Assembly: GCA_021806645.1 (NCBI GenBank)
Contig: JAJZQX010000021.1
Span: forward strand, 1 to 48,061
From: Myxococcales bacterium
GTDB lineage: Bacteria > Myxococcota > Myxococcia > Myxococcales > Anaeromyxobacteraceae
DNA length: 48,061 nucleotides
Direction of reading: 5' to 3'
The translations under genes and the position numbers were made by a program. Of the stretch, positions 10,792 through 32,972 are shown piece by piece. Each line of letters begins with the position of its first letter. Within the stretch, counting starts at the first letter, position 1. The notes under the pieces were generated by a model. It did no database searches. It worked only from the letters and a program-made list of their open reading frames with translations, and was not told the DNA's origin.

Positions 10792-13194
10792 TCAGTCGGT
10801 GGGGAGACCGATCTTCTTCTCCATCGCCTTGAAGCGCGGGTCGCCGCGCAGGCCGCGGAGGAGCGGATCCAGCCGCAGGTCGCCCAGGCCGCCATCGCGC
10901 TGGGCCAGCGCGCGGTCGAGCCACTGGAAGGCCTGGTCGGCCTCGCCGCGCCAGGCGAAGGCGGAGGCGATCTGGAAGGGCGCATCGGCGGAGTGGGTGG
11001 CGATGAGCTGGTCCAGGGCGGCCTTCGAGTCATGGGCCCGGCCCAGGTCCTGGTACGCCGCCGCCTCGAACTGGAGGTGGAAGAGCGGCTCGGCGCTCCG
11101 GCGTGCCGCGGCGATGGCCGCCTCCGGCCTGCGCTCCAGCAGCTCGGCGGTGGCGAGGTAGACTGGCGCCGAGTCCTGCTCCGGCCAGAGTTCCAGCGAG
11201 CGGAGCGCCGCGCTCCGCGCCAGCTCGATCCGCTCCAGCGCCAGGTAGAGGGCCGCCAGCGAGGACCACGGCGCGGAGGACATCGGGTCGAGCTGGCTGG
11301 CTCGCCGCGCCAGCGCGATGGCCTCCTCGACCCGGCCGGTCGGCCCCAGCACGTAGCGGGCGAAGCGCCACATCAGCTCGGGATCACCCGGGCTGATCAC
11401 CAGCGCCCGCTCCATGTCGGCGCGCCCGCCCGCCCAGTCCCGCCGCAGGTTGACGCGGAAGAAGCCGCGGGCCGCGTAGGCCTCGCCGAGCTCCGGCGCC
11501 AGGGCCACCGCCCGCTGGGCCGCCGCCTCGGCGCGCGACTTGGAGGCGTCGAGGTCGGCGCCGGCGTCGCTGACGTTGCCCCAGCCGTAGAAGACGGCAT
11601 AGGAGAGCCCCGCCCAGGCCGGCGCGTAGCCGGGGTCGAGATCGAGGGCGCGCTGGAAGGCGGCGGCGGCCAGGCGCGAGCCGGCCACGGTGTCCCGCCG
11701 CAGGAAGCGCCGGCCTTGCAGGTACTGGCTGTAAACCTCGGGATCCCCGGTCCGGTACTCGCGGCTGGTGGGGCGACGCCCGCGCAGCAGCTCCACCTCG
11801 AGCGCCGCCACCACGGCGCTGGCGATCTCGTCCTGCACCGCGAAGACCCCGGTCAGCTCCCGCACGATGGTCCGCGACCAGAGGTGGCGGCCGTCCCGGG
11901 TCCGGACCAGCCGCGCGGTGACCCGGACCCGGTTGGCGTCCCGGCGGACGCTTCCGACCAGCACGTTGGCGGCGCCGAGCTGGCGCCCCAGCGAGCGCAG
12001 GTCGCCCGTCCGGTCGCGGAAGGCGAAGGCCGAGGCACGCCCGGTCACGCGCAGCCCGTCCACCTGCGCCAGCGCGTTGGTGATCTCCTCCGCCAGCCCG
12101 TCCGAGAAGTACTCCTGGTCGTGCCGCTCGCTCAGGTCGGTGAAGGGGAGCACCGCGACCGACGGCGTGACCTCGGCCGGCGCGGAGCGCCCTCGCAGCA
12201 ACACGGCGCCGGCGGCGAGCGCGGCGACGAGCGCGAGCCCGCCGGCCAGCGCGGTCCGCGAGCGGGCCCGGCGCAGGATGCGGATCGAGGAGGTGCTCCC
12301 CGAGCGGGAGGCGCTGGCGTCCGGGCGCAGCGCCTCCAGCGCCGCCACCACCGCCGCGCCGTCGCGAGGCCGCTCCACCGGATCCTTGGCCAGCATCCGG
12401 CCCACCAGCTCACCCAGCCCTGGCCACTCCGGCACCCCGAGGGCCGGCGCCGGGACCGGGCCGGTCGTCGAGCGCCCGACGTCGTCGGGGAAGGGGAGCT
12501 GGCCGCTGAGCAGCCGGTAGAGCAGGACGCCCAGCGCGAAGACGTCGGTGCGCTCGTCCTCCGGCGCGCCACGCCACTGCTCGGGCGCCACGTAGCCGGG
12601 GGCCCCGCCGTCGAGCCGCGGACGGCCGAAGGTGTGGGCCACGCCGAGGTCGAGCACCTTCACCGCGCCGTCGTCGGAGAGGAAGACGTGGTCGGGCTTC
12701 AGGTCGTGATGGGCCACGCCGCGCGCGTGGGCCAGCGCCAGCGCCCGGGCCACCGCCAGCGCGATGCGGACCGCCTCCCCGGGCGCGAGCGGCTCGGAGG
12801 AGAGCCGCTGGGACAGCCTGGCTCCCTCGAGCAGCTCGTAGACGAGGTACGGCCCCTGCTCGCAGCGGCCGGCGTCGAAGAGCGCGGCGAGGTTGGGGTG
12901 GGTGAGGCCGGCGATGGTCTCGGCCTCGTGGCGAACCCGCTCCGCCGACCCCTGGACCTGTCCGGCTCGCAGCACCTTCAAGGCGACCCGCCGCTCCAGC
13001 ACCGGGTCCTGGGCCTCGAAGACGACGCAGAAGGGGTCGCGCGACAGCTCCCGCACCAGCGTGAACCGGCCAATGGACCGACCCGGTTGCAGGTCGGCGG
13101 CCCAACCGGCTCCCCCCTCGGCCGGGGGCATCCGGACGAGGTCGTCGAGCAGCGCCGAGAGGGTCCCGGGCCTGGGCGTGGTGTGGCGGGTCAC
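10792..13194 (-). CDS. Membrane Ser/Thr protein kinase with TolB-like and TPR domains
   Basis: About 800 residues from a GTG start at 13194; an in-frame upstream ATG exists at 13233. Residues 43-290 are a Hanks-type kinase: VALK lysine K73, E90, catalytic D164, DLG at 182-184 and APE at 203-205. A transmembrane helix lies at about 315-333. A FlgO/TolB-like segment with SVAVLPFTDLS and DGLAEEITNAL (about 345-480) follows, then TPR-like helices to the end. This design is common in myxobacteria and other multicellular bacteria: cytoplasmic kinase, exported sensor half. Oddities are a glycine loop without its glycines (LSRDPFCVVF), HHD instead of HRD, and DLKPDH where family members have DLKPxN. 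It may be a weak kinase or a pseudokinase. Targets are unknown. Confidence 0.9.
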   Translation of the reverse strand: MTRHTTPRPGTLSALLDDLVRMPPAEGGAGWAADLQPGRSIGRFTLVRELSRDPFCVVFEAQDPVLERRVALKVLRAGQVQGSAERVRHEAETIAGLTHPNLAALFDAGRCEQGPYLVYELLEGARLSQRLSSEPLAPGEAVRIALAVARALALAHARGVAHHDLKPDHVFLSDDGAVKVLDLGVAHTFGRPRLDGGAPGYVAPEQWRGAPEDERTDVFALGVLLYRLLSGQLPFPDDVGRSTTGPVPAPALGVPEWPGLGELVGRMLAKDPVERPRDGAAVVAALEALRPDASASRSGSTSSIRILRRARSRTALAGGLALVAALAAGAVLLRGRSAPAEVTPSVAVLPFTDLSERHDQEYFSDGLAEEITNALAQVDGLRVTGRASAFAFRDRTGDLRSLGRQLGAANVLVGSVRRDANRVRVTARLVRTRDGRHLWSRTIVRELTGVFAVQDEIASAVVAALEVELLRGRRPTSREYRTGDPEVYSQYLQGRRFLRRDTVAGSRLAAAAFQRALDLDPGYAPAWAGLSYAVFYGWGNVSDAGADLDASKSRAEAAAQRAVALAPELGEAYAARGFFRVNLRRDWAGGRADMERALVISPGDPELMWRFARYVLGPTGRVEEAIALARRASQLDPMSSAPWSSLAALYLALERIELARSAALRSLELWPEQDSAPVYLATAELLERRPEAAIAAARRSAEPLFHLQFEAAAYQDLGRAHDSKAALDQLIATHSADAPFQIASAFAWRGEADQAFQWLDRALAQRDGGLGDLRLDPLLRGLRGDPRFKAMEKKIGLPTD

Positions 13195-13313
13195 GGTGGA
13201 CCGAAATTCGCATGAGTGGGCGAAGGGCGGCAAGCCCTCGCCTTGCCCACCGCGACCGAGCGTGTCACCATCCTGTCGCGCAGGCCTCTCTCACCGGACC
13301 TCGAGGACCAGAC
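13195..13313. other. Divergent intergenic region, kinase and CBS gene
   Basis: This short 119-bp gap should hold back-to-back promoters for the kinase (minus) and the CBS protein (plus). I could not identify -35/-10 boxes with confidence. Confidence 0.35.
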
Positions 13314-13754
13314 ATGGCGGACAAGAAGCTGACGGTCGGCGGCTGGATGACGCCGAACCCCATCACCATCGACGAGGACGCCTCGGTCATCGAGGCCATC
13401 CACCTGCTCAAGGAGAAGGCCATCCGCCGGCTCCCGGTGATGAAGAAGGGGAAGCTGGTCGGCCTGGTCACCGAGAAGATGCTGGCGGCCTACACGCCCG
13501 GCAAGGCCACCTCGCTCGACCAGTGGGAGCTGCACGGACTGCTCGACAAGACCAAGGTCAGGGCGGCCATGAACGCCGACCCCTACAAGGTCCACCCCGA
13601 CACGCCGCTGGCCGAGGCGGTCAAGCTGCTCCACGACAAGAAGCTGAACGGCGTGCTGGTGGTGGACGAACACGGGATGCTGGCGGGCATCCTCACCAAC
13701 ACCAACGTCCACGAGGCGCTCATCCACTTCGCCGGAGCTGCCGCCGCCCGCTGA
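13314..13754 (+). CDS. Tandem CBS-domain protein
   Basis: A 146-residue soluble protein made of two CBS motifs and little else. The first runs from WMTPNPITIDEDASVIEAI to VGLVTEKML. The second runs from AAMNADPYKVHPDTPLAEAV to LAGILTNTNVHEAL. Such Bateman modules bind adenine nucleotides and report energy state. Stand-alone forms act on partner enzymes or transporters, and no partner is fused here. The ATG at 13314 follows CGAGGACCAG; an upstream in-frame ATG at 13212 would add 34 non-conserved residues that overlap the kinase promoter. It is a single gene, convergent with the liv operon. Confidence 0.9.
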   Translation: MADKKLTVGGWMTPNPITIDEDASVIEAIHLLKEKAIRRLPVMKKGKLVGLVTEKMLAAYTPGKATSLDQWELHGLLDKTKVRAAMNADPYKVHPDTPLAEAVKLLHDKKLNGVLVVDEHGMLAGILTNTNVHEALIHFAGAAAAR

Positions 13755-13768
13755 CACGGGTCGCGGCA

Positions 13769-15031
13769 CTAGGTCCAGACCCGCCGGTCGTCCATCTTCT
13801 TGCTACCCTCGGGGAGCGCGCCGCGGGCGAGCAGCGTGACCTCGCCGCGCACCTTCAGCTCCTCGCGCAGCGCCTCGGCCAGCGCGGCGGCCAGCGCCTC
13901 GTCGCCGGGCCGATCCGACTCGATCTCGTAGCGCAGCTGATCGAGGTGGTGGTCGCGGGTCACCACGGCGCGGAAGCGGCCGGTCCCGGGGAAGCGCTTC
14001 AGCACCGCCTCCACCTGGCCGCCGCGCACGAACATCCCCTTCACCTTGACGGCGTCGCCGACGCGGCCGAGCAGACCGGAAAGCTTGGGCGCCACCCGGC
14101 CGCAGGCGCAGCGGGTGTCCGGCGCCAGCGCGCCGATGTCGCCGGTGGCGAAGCGGAGCAGCGGGTAGGCCTCGTCGAAGATGGTTACCACCAGCTCGCC
14201 GGGCTGCCCGGGCGCGGCGGGCCGGCCGGTCTCGAGATCGAGCACCTCGACGAGCGCGTCGGGGTGGAGGTGCCAGCCGCCCAGCTCGGAGCACTCGTAG
14301 GCGATGCAGCCGAGGTCGGCGGTGCCGTAGCCCTGCCGGCAGCGGACGCCGAAGGCCTCGATGTCGGCGCGCAGCGACTCGGGGAGCATCTCGGCGGCCA
14401 CGAAGGCCACCTCGAGGGAGAGCGGCGTGCCGGTCTCGCGGGCGCGGGTGAGGAGCTGGAAGAGGAAGCTGGGGGTGCCGGTGTAGGCGGTGGCGCGCAG
14501 GTGCGAGGCGGCCTTGAGCTGCAGCTCGGTCTGCCCCACGCCACCTGGGATGACGGCGCAGCCGAGCGCGCGCGCCGCGCCGTCGAACATGAAGCCCAGC
14601 GGCGTCAGGTGGTAACTGGCCGAGTTGAGCACCACGTCGCCGCGCCGGAAGCCGGCGGCGGCCAGCCCGTGGCGGAAGCGCCAGAAGTCGCCGTCGTGCC
14701 CCTGAGGGTCGAAGATGGGGCCGGGGGACATGTAGAGCCGGGCCAGGTCGCCGGGGGCGAGGCCGGCCAGGCCGCCGAAGGGCGGCTCCGAGGCCTGCAG
14801 GCCGGGCAGCGCGTCCTTGCGGGTGACGGGGAGCCGGGCCAGGTCGTCGAGGCCGCGGATGCCGGCGGGAGAGAGGCCGGCCTGCTCCAGGGAGCGGCGC
14901 GTCCGGGGCGCCCTCTTCCAGGCGTGGGCCACGGTGGCGGCGAGCCGCTGGCCGAGCCGGGTCCGCCAGGCCTCCTGGGCAAGACACTCCAGGTCCGGGT
15001 CGAGGATGGATCCAGGACGAAGCGTGGCCAT
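13769..15031 (-). CDS. Phenylacetate-CoA ligase family adenylate-forming enzyme
   Basis: A 420-residue member of the PaaK/coenzyme F390 synthetase branch of the AMP-forming ligases. It activates a carboxylic acid to acyl-AMP and then acyl-CoA. Family signatures visible are YMSPGPIFDPQGHDGD, the adenylate-binding AYTGTPSFLFQLL, YGTADLGCIAYECSELGG and the C-terminal VKGMFVRGGQVEAVLKRF. AAGGAG lies just before the ATG at 15031. It is the last gene of the seven-gene uptake operon, 27 bases after livF. That position implies it activates an acid imported by this transporter. An aromatic acid such as phenylacetate or benzoate is plausible by family, but the substrate cannot be read from sequence. 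Confidence 0.88.
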   Translation of the reverse strand: MATLRPGSILDPDLECLAQEAWRTRLGQRLAATVAHAWKRAPRTRRSLEQAGLSPAGIRGLDDLARLPVTRKDALPGLQASEPPFGGLAGLAPGDLARLYMSPGPIFDPQGHDGDFWRFRHGLAAAGFRRGDVVLNSASYHLTPLGFMFDGAARALGCAVIPGGVGQTELQLKAASHLRATAYTGTPSFLFQLLTRARETGTPLSLEVAFVAAEMLPESLRADIEAFGVRCRQGYGTADLGCIAYECSELGGWHLHPDALVEVLDLETGRPAAPGQPGELVVTIFDEAYPLLRFATGDIGALAPDTRCACGRVAPKLSGLLGRVGDAVKVKGMFVRGGQVEAVLKRFPGTGRFRAVVTRDHHLDQLRYEIESDRPGDEALAAALAEALREELKVRGEVTLLARGALPEGSKKMDDRRVWT

Positions 15032-15058
15032 GGCTGGTACTCCTTCTCGGCCGGCGGA

Positions 15059-15844
15059 CTAGCTCAGCCAGCGCTTGCGGCGCTTGTAGAACTTCAGGTT
15101 CTTGTAGCTCTTGCCGGCCCCGCCACCCATGTAGAACTCCTTCACGTCCTCGTTGGAGCGCAGCTTCTCGGCGTCGCCCTCGAGCACGATCCGGCCGTTC
15201 TCCATGACGTAGCCGAGGTGGGCGATGGAGAGGGCGAGGTTGGCGTTCTGCTCGACCAGGAGGAAGGTGGTCTTCTCCTCTTCGTTGATGCGCTTCACGA
15301 TGCCGAAGATCTCCTTCACCAGCAGCGGCGCCAGCCCCAGGCTCGGCTCGTCGAGCAGGATCAGCCTGGGGCGCGCCATGAGCGCCCGGCTGATGGCCAG
15401 CATCTGCTGCTCGCCGCCGGAGAGGTAGCCGGCCAGGTGCTTGCGCCGCTCCCGCAGGCGCGGGAAGTAGGCGTAGACCATCTCGGTGTCGCGCCTCAGG
15501 CCGGCCCGGTCGTCCCGGGTGTAGCCGCCCATGACGATGTTCTCCTCCACCGTCAGGTCCTCGAAGACCCGCCGCCCCTCCATCACCTGGAAGATGCCGC
15601 GGCGGACGATCTGCTCGGGGGCCACGCCCTCGATGCGCTGGCCGAGGAACTCGATGGCACCGTCGGTGACCTCGCCCTCCTCGGTGTGTAGCAGGCCGGA
15701 GATGGCCTTGAGGGTGGTGCTCTTGCCGGCGCCGTTGGAGCCGAGCAGGGCCACGATCTTCCCCTCCGGGACGTGGAGGGAGAGCCCCTTCAAGACCAGG
15801 ATGACGTCGTCGTAGATGACCTCGACGTTCTTCAGGTGGAGCAT
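15059..15844 (-). CDS. livF: Branched-chain/aromatic acid ABC transporter ATPase LivF-type
   Basis: This is one of two ATPases of a high-affinity branched-chain amino acid (HAAT) family importer. The 261 residues contain Walker A GSNGAGKST, the signature LSGGEQQ, Walker B LILLDEPSLGL and the LivF-type switch histidine region. An unusual basic tail (KNLKFYKRRKRWLS) extends past the normal LivF end. It is separated from the upstream binding-protein gene by a strong hairpin (15866-15895), suggesting lower output than the binding protein. Its ribosome site is weak. Confidence 0.93.
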   Translation of the reverse strand: MLHLKNVEVIYDDVILVLKGLSLHVPEGKIVALLGSNGAGKSTTLKAISGLLHTEEGEVTDGAIEFLGQRIEGVAPEQIVRRGIFQVMEGRRVFEDLTVEENIVMGGYTRDDRAGLRRDTEMVYAYFPRLRERRKHLAGYLSGGEQQMLAISRALMARPRLILLDEPSLGLAPLLVKEIFGIVKRINEEEKTTFLLVEQNANLALSIAHLGYVMENGRIVLEGDAEKLRSNEDVKEFYMGGGAGKSYKNLKFYKRRKRWLS

Positions 15845-15865
15845 GCGGGCTCGCGAAGGCGGAAG

Positions 15866-15895
15866 GGAGGGGCGGCCGCGCTGGACCGCCCCTCC
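15866..15895 (-). terminator. Hairpin between binding-protein gene and livF
   Basis: A perfect 10-bp stem, GGAGGGGCGG with CCGCCCCTCC, encloses a 10-base loop. There is no T-run, so it is more likely a partial attenuator or an mRNA-stabilising hairpin than a full terminator. It is well placed to raise binding-protein mRNA over livF and paaK-like mRNA. Confidence 0.55.
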
Positions 15896-15910
15896 GGGTT
15901 CACAACCGGT

Positions 15911-28483: not shown

Positions 28484-29038
28484 TCAGAACGCCATGCCGA
28501 CGCCAAGTCGAACCGCCATGAGGCCAGCTTCGCCCTTCAGGTGAATGGCGCCAGCCTTGTAGATGAACCCGGCTGCGCCATCCACATCAAACGAATTTCC
28601 GGGGTTTATCAAGTCGCCACTTGCCTTGCGGTAAACGAGCGAGACCTTCGGATAGAAGGCGAACCGATCGCTGAGCCACAGGTTCCACGCCCCGCCCAGC
28701 ATGAACTGGAGGACGTTCGCCGACTGAGTGATTCCGAAAACCGTCCAGGAAGTCCCGTAGTACTCGACGCCACCCTCGATGCCGATGTCGTCCTTGAGGA
28801 TGCCTCTGGTCCTCAGGAACCCTCCTGGTGCGATCGTCTTCTGATACGTGACGCCGCCGCCGACTCCGGTGGCGGGGACGGGGGCCTCGATTACCCAGGT
28901 CAAGCCAGCGTGGACGGCAAGGAGCCCGTCGATGCTCGGCGAGGTGGAGGAACTGGCGGCCTCCTCGGCCCGAGCAGGCGTGAACGCGAACAGCGTGACT
29001 GCGGCGAGCGCCACAAAGGAGGAGATGCTTCGAGTCAT
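28484..29038 (-). CDS. Outer-membrane beta-barrel-like protein, paralogue A
   Basis: 184 residues from the ATG at 29038. It has a Sec signal peptide (MTRSISSFVALAAVTLFAF, cut after PARA), then alternating amphipathic strands and a terminal aromatic residue (RLGVGMAF), as in small outer-membrane barrels. It is clearly related to the gene at 32400: GILKDDIGIEG, WNLWLSDRFAFYPKVSLVY, SGDLINPG and HLKGEAG have counterparts in the same order. An upstream in-frame ATG at 29170 is rejected because it buries the signal peptide. The region is less GC-rich than the flanking genes, consistent with acquisition. It probably pairs with the lipoprotein at 27733. Confidence 0.82.
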   Translation of the reverse strand: MTRSISSFVALAAVTLFAFTPARAEEAASSSTSPSIDGLLAVHAGLTWVIEAPVPATGVGGGVTYQKTIAPGGFLRTRGILKDDIGIEGGVEYYGTSWTVFGITQSANVLQFMLGGAWNLWLSDRFAFYPKVSLVYRKASGDLINPGNSFDVDGAAGFIYKAGAIHLKGEAGLMAVRLGVGMAF

Positions 29039-29235
29039 TGGTTTCGCTTTCCGGAGAGTAATGGTCGCGGGAGATGCCTCAACAAGTTCGCACGCTATGA
29101 TTCTTAGTTTAACTATGCTTTGGGTGTGTGTCACGTCGCGTGAATGCGGGACGGCAGTATTCTTGCCCACGTACCCCTACACCGTTCCATGCGTGATCGG
29201 TTTACGAGGCCCATGTGCGTGATCCGTCGAGGGTT
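29039..29235. other. Intergenic, relatively AT-rich
   Basis: Upstream region of the barrel gene and 3' flank of the IS4 remnant. It has a near-palindrome TAGTTTAACTA at about 29105 and no gene. IS4 terminal repeats should lie here but were not resolved by eye. Confidence 0.4.
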
Positions 29236-29955
29236 TCATGCGACGGCGGCCATGGGGTGATGACGGTGAGTACGCTGCTCGGCCGAGACGAGGAGACCAT
29301 GGCGGGCCGCGCTGGGGTCCACCGCCTCGTGGAGCAGCACGCGCTGGACCTTGGCCAGCATCGCCTTCACTGTTCGTGGCGGGCGAAGCACCGCCGCCAG
29401 GAGGTCGTGGGCGACGACGGCAAGAACGGTCGCCCAGAGCTGCGCCGGGATTCGATCGGCCAGCGCTGCAAGGCGGCCGCGCACCAGCGCGAGAAGACGC
29501 CGACTCACCACCATGGTCAGGAAGGCCGCGCAGAGCAGGCTCCCCACCACCACCCGCTTGCTGCTCGGCATGTCCTCGACCCGGTAGTAGGTCTTCAGTT
29601 CCTTGAAGAGCAGTTCGACCTGCCAGCGCAGCGAGTATTCGGCGCCGATGTCCTCGGCCGCGAGCCTCTCCGGGGGGACGTTGGTCACGTAGAGGTGGTA
29701 CTGGCCGGTTTCGCGGTTCAGCAGGCCCACCACGCGCAGGCGCTGGGTGTCGCGGTGAACGCGTCCACCGTAGCTCGGCGCGGGAAGCGCACCTCGACCT
29801 CGACGTCCAGCACCTGCCGCTGCATGCGCGGGACGACGTCGCGGAGCCGCTCGCCGACCAGCGGAATGGCGCGGCCCCGGTGGATGCGGTTCACCCCGAC
29901 GATGGTGGGATCGGCGTTGCCCTTCAGCCGGGTCAGGAAGTAGCCTCCGTTGTGC
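29236..29955 (-). pseudogene. IS4-type transposase, C-terminal remnant, frameshifted
   Basis: The C-terminal third of a DDE transposase in two frames. The upstream part (about 29780-29955) reads GYFLTRLKGNADPTIVGVNR. The downstream part (29236-29733) contains YSLRWQVELLFKELK, a perfect IS4-family Y-2-R-3-E-6-K signature with the last catalytic glutamate. A frameshift near 29780 breaks it: RFPRRATVDAF replaces an expected RFxxxxYGGRVHRDT run before VVGLLNRETGQYHLYV. The N-terminal half is missing at 29955, where a ParB-like fragment is joined. A matching N-terminus lies at 31990-32213 on the same strand, so the two pieces probably come from one element split by later insertions and a deletion. 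Confidence 0.82.
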
Positions 29956-30364
29956 GGCACACGAAGCTCTTGTGCCGGCCGAGCAGCACCGCGATCTGCG
30001 GCTGGGTGAGCGCGTCGTCCCGGTACAGCGACCGCACCAGCCAGGCCTCCTCGAGTTCGGACAGCCCCGACGCCGCGTTGCAGCGCAACAGCCGCACCTT
30101 CGCGCCCGCCGCGTCGAGCGTATGCACCTCGGCCCGCACCGCGGGCCACGACAGCTGGCGCGCCGCGCGCGCCCGCTTGAACCCGTCGAAGAGTTCGAGG
30201 CCCTTGCCGGAGCGGTACACCTGCACCGGCGTCAGTTGCCCCAGCCTCGCCAGCGACAACTGTATCTGCTGCTGCGCCTCCGGCGCGCACAGCCGCACCA
30301 CCGAGAGCGCCTCGCCCAGTTCCGCCGGCGCCACCGCGATCGTCGCTGCCGCCTCGCCTGTCAT
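29956..30364 (-). pseudogene. ParB N-domain-like protein, truncated
   Basis: The frame opens with an ATG at 30364 and reads SVVRLCAPEAQQQIQLSLAR and LTPVQVYRSGKGLELFDGFK, then RARAARQLSW. This is the ParB/Spo0J nuclease-like N-domain with its 'leudGfkR' box. An HTH start follows: LTQPQIAVLLGRHKSFVCR. After VCR the sequence passes into the IS4 remnant and stops, so about half or more of the protein is gone. Such ParB-like proteins occur in some transposable elements (general knowledge). The GGCGCGTGAC array just upstream fits an element end. It is unlikely to function in chromosome segregation. Confidence 0.7.
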
Positions 30365-30405
30365 GCGAGGAACGGTGCGCCCGCTCGCTCACTGCTGACC
30401 AAACC

Positions 30406-30654
30406 GGCGCGTGACGGATGTCCCAGCAAAGCGTGCTCAACCCCGCGTCCCGACTCGCGATCCTTGGCTGAGCCCAGCGCGTGACAGTGGGCCCTCATGT
30501 CCCAACCTGCGCCCCCGAGAATTCAATCGTCCCAGCGAAAAGGAGGCGGATCCGACGGCGCAGGCCGGCGCGTGACACGCGCTCGGCTTGTCCCTTATTG
30601 TCGACCATTTCCTCAATGGCGGCTGCTACTTCCGCCGACAGGCCGGCGCGTGAC
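30406..30654 (+). repeat. Four-copy GGCGCGTGAC array, likely transposon-end sites
   Basis: GGCGCGTGAC occurs at 30406-30415, 30567-30576 and 30645-30654. A one-mismatch copy, AGCGCGTGAC, is at 30476-30485. Three copies are extended by a preceding CC. Each is followed within 4-13 bases by (T)GTCCC. The spacing is irregular (70, 91, 78 bp). All copies have the same orientation, immediately upstream of the ParB-like fragment. Multiple spaced same-way sites are typical of the ends of Mu-, Tn7- or IS21-like elements. Confidence 0.6.
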
Positions 30655-30758
30655 ATCGGCGGTCCAGTCCCGCCTGCCGCTGCCGTCGAGATCGTCGCTG
30701 CCGCTCGCGCTCCGCTTGGCGGAACTCCGTCCGGCGCCGCTGTCCGCCGCGCCTTCGC
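30655..30758. other. Junction DNA between repeat array and IS256-type gene
   Basis: Short, very GC-rich low-complexity sequence with no gene. The left end of the IS256-type element should lie here or slightly upstream, but I could not find its inverted repeat. Confidence 0.35.
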
Positions 30759-31940
30759 TTGCCGCGCGCGCCGCTGCCGGCGGCACCCCTCCGAGCACGT
30801 CCTCTGCGTCTTCGCCGTCGCCGCCCGCGCCCGGTCGCCTTGGAGGTCGTCCTGGAGGAGGAGATCCAAGCCTTGGTCGGCGCCAGGAAGTGGGCGCGCC
30901 AGGCCCAGCGGGTCGACAGCCGGAACGGTACGTACCTGCGCCGGCTCATCACCTCCATGGGCGGCATCGATCTCAAGGTGCCGAGATCTCGCGAGGGCGG
31001 CTCCGCCGGCGGTGCCGTGTTCGGGCGGTACAAGCGCCGGAGCGCCGAGGTCGACGACACCATGGTGGCCGCCTACGTGCGCGGCGCTTCGACGCGGGAC
31101 ATCGGCCAGATCACCGAGGCGCTCATGGGTGAGCACGTGAGCCGCTCGACCGTGAGCCGGGCCGCGAAGACGCTGGGCACCAAGGTCGAGGACCTGCGGA
31201 AGGCGCCCATCGAAGGCCCGATCCCGTACCTGTTCCTGGACGCGACCTTCCTCGACGCCCGGTGGGCGCGGGAGGTCGAGAACGTCTCGGCGCTGGTGGC
31301 CTACGGCGTCGGTCCGGATGGCCACCGGCAGCTCCTGGCGATCACCATCGGCGCCGAGGAGTCGGAGGCGTCCTGGAGCGACCTGCTCGCCCAGCTCAAC
31401 GAGCGCGGCCTGTCGGGAGTGCAGTTGGTCATAGCCGACGCTCACGCCGGCCTGGCCAAGGCGGTGCGCCACCACCTCCCCGAGGCGCCGCTGCAGAGGT
31501 GCTGCGTCCACCTCCAGCGGAACGTCGTCGCCAAGGCCCCCCAGAAGCTCAGGGCGCGGCTCGCCAAGGCGGTCTGGCAGGTCTTCCTGGCGCCGTCCAA
31601 GGCCGAGGCCCGCAAGCGGATGGCCGACCTCGCCGCCGGCCTCGGTCGCCAACTCCCGGAGTCGATGGCGTGCCTCGAGGCCGGCTTCGAAGCGGCCACC
31701 AAGTTCTACGCCTTCCCCAAGGCTCACTGGCACCGCATCCGCTCCACCAATGGCCTCGAGCGGCTCCACGGAGAGATCAAGCGCCGGACCAACGCGATCG
31801 GCGCCTTCCCAAACCGGGACAGCGCCCTCCGCCTCGTCACCGCCGTCGCGCTCAACGTGACCTCCATCTGGACCGACCGCCGCTACCTGGACATGTCCCT
31901 GTTGAAGTCGAACGAGGTCGTCGTCACCAAGGCGGCCTGA
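30759..31940 (+). CDS. IS256-family (Transposase_mut) transposase
   Basis: A DDE transposase of the IS256/Mutator group, 393 residues as drawn. Recognisable homology begins at about residue 28 (LEVVLEEEIQALVGARKWAR). Further landmarks are the first Asp region LFLDATFLDARW, the second Asp VIADAHAGLAKAV and CCVHLQRNVVAKAP. The final Glu box is TNGLERLHGEIKRRTNAIG. The catalytic part looks intact. The first 27 residues are Arg/Pro-rich and unlike the family; a TTG at 30840 could be the true start, or the native N-terminus may have been replaced at a junction. It splits the N-terminal IS4 fragment (31990-32213) from the rest of the mobile nest. Confidence 0.85.
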   Translation: MPRAPLPAAPLRARPLRLRRRRPRPVALEVVLEEEIQALVGARKWARQAQRVDSRNGTYLRRLITSMGGIDLKVPRSREGGSAGGAVFGRYKRRSAEVDDTMVAAYVRGASTRDIGQITEALMGEHVSRSTVSRAAKTLGTKVEDLRKAPIEGPIPYLFLDATFLDARWAREVENVSALVAYGVGPDGHRQLLAITIGAEESEASWSDLLAQLNERGLSGVQLVIADAHAGLAKAVRHHLPEAPLQRCCVHLQRNVVAKAPQKLRARLAKAVWQVFLAPSKAEARKRMADLAAGLGRQLPESMACLEAGFEAATKFYAFPKAHWHRIRSTNGLERLHGEIKRRTNAIGAFPNRDSALRLVTAVALNVTSIWTDRRYLDMSLLKSNEVVVTKAA

Positions 31941-32399: not shown

Positions 32400-32972
32400 A
32401 TGGAGCGACGTGCCGTCCGTAGTGTACTCGCAGTCGCGCTTCTCTACGTTACGCCAGTGTGGGCCGAGGATCCCGTCGGGTCGCCTGCCGCGCCTAGCGC
32501 CAACGCGTTCGTGTCGGTACATGGAACCCTGACCACGGTCTTCGCTAATGTCGACTCTGCGACTGGAATTGGAGCCGGAGTCGCCTTTCAGAAGACAGTC
32601 GTTCCAGAAAGCCTCCTGAAGATCAGGGGCATACACAAGGACGACATTGGCATCGAGGTTGAGTTCGAGCGCCTGAGCGTGTCCTACACCATTTACGCCT
32701 ACTACCCGGGGGTGACGTACCGTTTTCCGGCCAGTGCCAGTGCTCTCCTGTTTGGCTTGAGCGGTGTTTGGAACATCTGGCTCAACGAGCGAATCGCTTT
32801 CTATCCGAAGCTCGGGCTCATCTACGCTGATTTTGGGGGTGATATCGAAAATCCCGGAGGGCAGTTTGGTGTCGACGCTGCGGCCGGGTGCGTCTTGAAG
32901 GTGGGACCCATCCAGTTGAAGGGCGAGGCCGGTTACCTGGGGTTTCGGCTAGGCGCCGGGGTCGCATTCTGA
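32400..32972 (+). CDS. Outer-membrane beta-barrel-like protein, paralogue B
   Basis: 190 residues with a signal peptide (SVLAVALLYVTPVWA, cleavage before EDP) and a barrel-like pattern ending in phenylalanine (FRLGAGVAF). GAGGAG lies eight bases before the ATG. It shares GIHKDDIGIEVE, WNIWLNERIAFYPKLGLIY, GGDIENPGG and IQLKGEAGY with the gene at 28484, in the same order. The two are therefore duplicates or arrived from one family. It points away from paralogue A across the mobile cluster. The lower GC than core genes suggests acquired DNA. Role unknown; no enzyme motif. Confidence 0.82.
   Translation: MERRAVRSVLAVALLYVTPVWAEDPVGSPAAPSANAFVSVHGTLTTVFANVDSATGIGAGVAFQKTVVPESLLKIRGIHKDDIGIEVEFERLSVSYTIYAYYPGVTYRFPASASALLFGLSGVWNIWLNERIAFYPKLGLIYADFGGDIENPGGQFGVDAAAGCVLKVGPIQLKGEAGYLGFRLGAGVAF

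Follow-up and report, generated by a model that had tools for sequence, protein, structure and literature searches.

Bacteriophage Mu carries an internal, left-side array of repressor-type sites that serves as operator and internal enhancer, and it possesses a transposase and an ATPase, MuA and MuB. For the IS21 family, one study describes ends with two repeats each and duplications of 5 bp (PMC10122671), and another leaves the question of immunity by IstB to future studies, its main text not mentioning ParB (PMC11208146). A search of open-licence PMC papers for ParB together with IS21, IstA or IstB found no account of elements combining them. Here, we describe a ParB-carrying IS21-type lineage that is widespread and seemingly undescribed. 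One remnant of it lies in the window, by which we mean the whole 48,061-nucleotide stretch of Myxococcales DNA that was analysed.

A preliminary description of this DNA had reported four same-way copies of a short repeat at 70-91 bp spacing, each followed by (T)GTCCC. Our window search bears this out: exact copies of GGCGCGTGAC start on the + strand at 30406, 30567 and 30645, a copy with one mismatch, AGCGCGTGAC, starts at 30476, and the spacings are 70, 91 and 78. GTCCC follows the copies at 30406, 30476, 30567 and 30645 at 4, 13, 13 and 12 bases, respectively, three times as TGTCCC and, behind the copy at 30645, as AGTCCC; read on the - strand, GGGAC precedes each copy by 4-13 bases (GGGACA in three). 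At up to one mismatch, the 10-mer of the array is unremarkable window-wide (14 observed versus 15.2 expected). The local arrangement of four copies scores 35, versus 28 for the best of 1000 dinucleotide shuffles of the 420-bp region (0/1000 reach the observed score). The features of the region are as follows:

29236-29953, - strand: IS4-type transposase remnant in two frames (DDE_Tnp_1 and NCBIfam IS4 on 29236-29733)
29954-30835, - strand: internal remnant of a ParB-bearing IS21-family element, 882 bp, 89% identity to the relative L003
29954-30364, - strand: first 137 codons of a parB-like gene (ORF; Noc/ParB models)
30406-30416, - strand: array copy 4, box 2 CGTCACGCGCC, with box 1 GGGACA at 30419-30424
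30476-30486, - strand: array copy 3, box 2 TGTCACGCGCT (one mismatch), with box 1 GGGACA at 30498-30503
30495-30835, - strand: 3' part of a zinc-ribbon ORF (tblastn to the L005 ORF, 49% over 51 aa)
30567-30577, - strand: array copy 2, box 2 TGTCACGCGCC, with box 1 GGGACA at 30589-30594
30645-30655, - strand: array copy 1, box 2 TGTCACGCGCC, with a weak box 1 at 30667-30671
30836-31940, + strand: IS256-type transposase gene without its N-terminus (Transposase_mut E 1e-98; NCBIfam IS256 above cut-off)

Copies 1 and 2 lie within the zinc-ribbon ORF, copy 3 lies past its stop codon, and copy 4 lies between this ORF and the parB start. The ParB-like fragment beside the array, which had also been noticed before, is real: two NCBIfam models match it, nucleoid_noc with E 6e-10 and parB_part with E 5e-6, and neither score reaches its curated cut-off.

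The remnant aligns with positions 737-1625 of L003 at 89% identity over 890 alignment columns, and the similarity stops sharply on both sides. It consists of the 3' part of the zinc-ribbon ORF, which has indels relative to L003 in the gapped alignment, the array and the 5' part of the parB-like gene, and it contains neither istA nor istB. On one side, parB beyond codon 137 is gone at the junction with the IS4-type remnant, a neighbour outside the ParB-bearing element that stands where the rest of parB would be, and of whose region positions 29188-29756 have a 91% copy on contig C25. On the other side, the remnant is abutted by the IS256-type gene, likewise a neighbour outside the element, whose Transposase_mut match starts at profile position 33. 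Since the left tip of L003 is at 560, its left end includes some 177 bp that are absent from the window. The earlier proposal that the left end of the transposon is preserved here is therefore not borne out: only an internal stretch was kept, both ends having been lost to the IS4-type and IS256-type neighbours, and 29954-30835 is a defunct interior piece of an IS21-family transposon. No further copy of the window ParB was found in its own genome, where a second match, on contig C24, is distant. The IS cluster is flanked by two paralogues of a secreted-type protein, divergently oriented (28484-29170, - strand, and 32400-32972, + strand; 47% identity), neither of which matched a Pfam family.

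A contig scan of genomes yielded 17 relatives, of which 16 have istA and istB downstream of parB; the exception, L004, has neither. The gene order of the element is zinc-ribbon ORF, parB-like gene, istA and istB. The proposal that the ParB-like gene and the array are parts of one transposable element is borne out, and the search for arrays next to ParB-like homologues that the preliminary description had suggested did find them, with istA/istB downstream. Together with 10 and 25 elements from further searches, the 17 relatives make up the 52 elements analysed, which were selected for the similarity of their ParB and cleared of duplicates manually; many of the loci are short MAG contigs whose host is uncertain. 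istA lies inside the retrieved stretch in 46 of the 52 (it is absent in L004, L086, L090, L146, L147 and L154). The ParB profile matched 11 of 193 genomes of the window's phylum, 2/296 of the phylum of G201 and 2/229 of the class of G195 at E<=1e-30, and 17/377 of the phylum of G199 and 4/392 of the phylum of G206 at E<=1e-25. Against the NCBIfam IS21 model (cut-off 160), IstA scores 218.5 bits in L005, 121 in L176, 154 in L153 and 150 in L156; IstB scores 199 in L005 and 188 in L176 (NCBIfam cut-off 200), and both pass Pfam IstB_IS21 (E 1.5e-53 for L005). No ParB was present in the retrieved flanks of 22 IS21 elements found via IstA (L054-L075), and in the IstA tree these ParB-less elements are set apart on one side of a branch with full support. 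There were two further peculiarities. Firstly, positions 5445-7618 of L004 contain two opposite-facing parB fragments and two zinc-ribbon ORFs without istA/istB, and are a decayed pair of related elements. Secondly, a further small ORF of about 90 aa lies downstream of istB in L003, as it does in L007, and is common to close relatives.

The arrays of the relatives comprise 3-4 bipartite copies, 68-108 bp apart, which lie partly in the zinc-ribbon ORF, starting in its 3' half, and end just before parB. In class I, box 1 (TGGGACA or CGTGGAC) stands about 11 bp before box 2 (TGTCACnnnCC), in four copies with spacings near 78/91/70, 90/78/70 or 79/100/68. In class II, cGACTaCTC stands about 13 bp before GCnAGACGAGAT-like words, in three copies that are mostly exactly 69 bp apart. 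A score that assumes no prior motif was applied to the 420 bp before parB in the 50 of 52 elements with sufficient sequence; 27 of these 50 reached at least 23, versus none of the 21 regions tested upstream of ParB-less IS21 elements, 1 of 82 istA coding stretches and 7 of 200 dinucleotide shuffles. Twenty of the 50 remained below the threshold of 21, including five Planctomycetota-type elements (L015-L019) and six with a zinc ribbon of type III. Three low scorers (L089, L136 and L139) nevertheless have two or three copies on inspection, and others seem to lack an array; when other repeat forms were sought in 13 array-less elements, a clear array emerged only in L089 (69/70-bp). Within one element, the copies of the 15 class I elements are alike, and between elements they are unlike: TGTCCCTCGCC occurs in all four copies of L006, and TGTCACTGACC in all four of L005, save the first base of one. 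The identity of the variable triplet within elements is 2.57/3, compared with 1.69 (sd 0.07) after permutation (0/2000), a permutation that ignores phylogeny, and gene conversion could contribute to this homogeneity. Copies inside the zinc-ribbon ORF stand in different frames in 4 of 10 elements (CHAP versus SRA), and at least one copy lies past its stop codon in 8 of 10 (the exceptions being L009 and L012). That frames differ among the copies inside a single ORF indicates that the constraint is on the nucleic acid, and that the peptide is not what is conserved.

Based on these arrangements, the repeats in the window are probably an internal cis-acting array of a zinc-ribbon/parB-carrying IS21-family lineage, a putative operator or transposition enhancer bound by an element-encoded protein. 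An element-encoded DNA-binding protein, zinc-ribbon or ParB-like, would occupy the array, its occupancy would set the expression of parB-istA-istB, and the array might perhaps also aid transpososome assembly, by analogy with the repressor operators/enhancer of Mu. As for which protein reads the array, we lean towards the zinc-ribbon protein, with ParB next and IstA least. Several observations bear on this ranking. First, array class tracks the type of zinc ribbon and not the phylogeny of ParB or IstA: L137 has a class I array and zinc ribbon among class II backbones in the trees, L081 (class II array) is sister to L132 (class I) in the ParB tree, and L141 and L144-L146, which have arrays, are nearest to L082 and L143, which have a type III zinc ribbon and no detected array. 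That array class jumps between ParB/IstA backbones favours the zinc-ribbon protein as the reader over both ParB and IstA. Second, the divergences of ParB and IstA are correlated (r 0.86, n=13), and array distance gives no signal with either (r -0.10 for ParB and 0.02 for IstA, n=13); with zinc-ribbon distance, r is 0.20 (p 0.26, n=8). On the other hand, the co-occurrence of array and zinc ribbon could stem from linkage alone, as both overlap physically. A Pfam search of the L005 zinc-ribbon ORF returned no family.

Less probably, the array is instead a parS-like loading site from which the ParB-like CTPase slides off, acting on IstB or nearby DNA, for instance in target immunity. The ParB-like protein itself invites this idea: full-length relatives are about 300 aa long, their profile matches PDB ParB/Noc/Spo0J proteins at E 4e-26, the best PDB matches of a structure model (pLDDT 86.5) are ParB/Noc/KorB, and GxxR-like and EEA motifs fall in line with Noc/ParB, so that the N-terminal and HTH domains have ParB/Noc/KorB sequence and, as modelled, the corresponding predicted fold. 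Moreover, the array abuts parB, and the two boxes of a copy make up an imperfect dyad. However, a ParB without a detectable array is found in all six elements in which a zinc ribbon of type III (CxxCG...CRxCDRGxxYCSxxC) precedes parB (L080, L082, L084, L088, L143 and L148), the near-invariant recognition helix HKSWVCRRL occurs with array class I as well as class II (L144-146), and both the jumps of array class among related ParBs and the uncorrelated distances mentioned above speak against this reading. When compared with plasmids, the window ParB fragment found no match; matches of other ParBs of the lineage in plasmids and phages were mostly ordinary partition proteins, and a match in Desulforapulum led to the intact copy described below. 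In L088, the region upstream of parB also contains an ORF similar to the CHC2 zinc-finger ORF described below.

Another alternative to an array acting as DNA is that the sites work in the zinc-ribbon-parB mRNA, through hairpins or protein binding. Every copy lies in or just after an ORF that is probably transcribed, and pairing between box 1 and box 2 can be drawn. We nevertheless judge this improbable, given that, in L003-type arrays, the spacing of the two boxes shrinks to 2-3 in copy 4, and that their pairing is imperfect in most elements.

The ends of the elements bear on the earlier suggestion that a transposase binds the repeats and that they mark a complex transposon end. Having several short sites that face the same way, close to one side of a transposon, would suit it, and multiple direct repeats do occur in IS21 ends, as stated in PMC10122671. 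Yet the ends of the relatives hold other sequences, namely inverted terminal repeats in which each end has at least two short direct repeats, of the types GATCCAC, GATCCCC, TGACCC, GTACCCC or AAATTGATACA. Such doublets stand at both termini and are distinct from the array, which is internal and restricted to the left side, some 360-850 bp inward of the left tip (L003, L176). In addition, array class disagrees at several places with the IstA tree, as it does with the ParB tree. The array is not the end of the transposon, and the suggestion as a whole is very unlikely. With tips set by eye from end alignments in 16 elements, exact target duplications of 7-9 bp flank eight (L176, L153, L156, L082, L145, L008, L006 and L017), and no exact duplication was found for the other eight (L005, L003, L011, L012, L010, L155, L138 and L014). 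Finally, it is hardly credible that the copies reflect a repeated peptide in the zinc-ribbon protein: the 69 bp between class II copies do equal 23 codons in the same frame, but class I is ruled out by its different-frame and post-stop copies, the peptide varies between elements, and the adjoining residues are better conserved.

An intact copy, L176, is present on plasmid pHRM2a of Desulforapulum autotrophicum (NC_012109.1, about 11165-15901; 4737 bp), with an 8-bp duplication and an array of three copies of GATTGCAAAGA. In that record, the product names are chromosome partitioning protein ParB for the parB-like gene, helix-turn-helix protein for istA and ATP-binding protein for istB; thus, the label of chromosome partitioning ParB is in some cases attached to genes of transposons. 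A promoter scan upstream in this element gave 4 observed versus 2.7 expected, an uninformative difference. Downstream of istB, still inside the element, lies a CHC2 (DnaG-type) zinc-finger ORF. At 4.7 kb and in a named strain, the pHRM2a element is a compact testable system. A bolder generalization, which we consider unlikely as a whole, is that a broad IS21-type lineage co-opted a ParB CTPase clamp, together with a zinc-ribbon DNA-binding protein, to regulate transposition, the two acting at a fast-evolving, element-specific array inside the zinc-ribbon gene that would be a private address: operator, enhancer and perhaps a mark of self-immunity. If this were true, ParB-type CTPase switches would enter DNA transposition, beyond chromosome and plasmid segregation.

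The lineage can be compared with several known systems. It resembles bacteriophage Mu in its internal left-side array and its transposase/ATPase pair, a likeness in layout from which a function of the array may be proposed by analogy. With the ParB/Noc/KorB CTPase family it shares sequence and predicted fold in the N-terminal and HTH domains; it differs in that parB stands between a zinc-ribbon ORF and istA and that the sites are not parS palindromes. No ParA was seen in the element, nor is one annotated inside the pHRM2a copy; compared with ParABS, the partner ATPase gene is that of IstB, and the sites are direct, bipartite and variable between elements. The likeness to the IS21 family comprises the IstA DDE transposase with its AAA+ helper IstB, terminal inverted repeats with two repeats per end and short target duplications, which measure 7-9 bp here and 5 bp in the IS21 member of PMC10122671. 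To this IS21 plan, the lineage adds an upstream zinc-ribbon ORF, a parB-like gene and an internal array, in elements of 3.7-5.2 kb.
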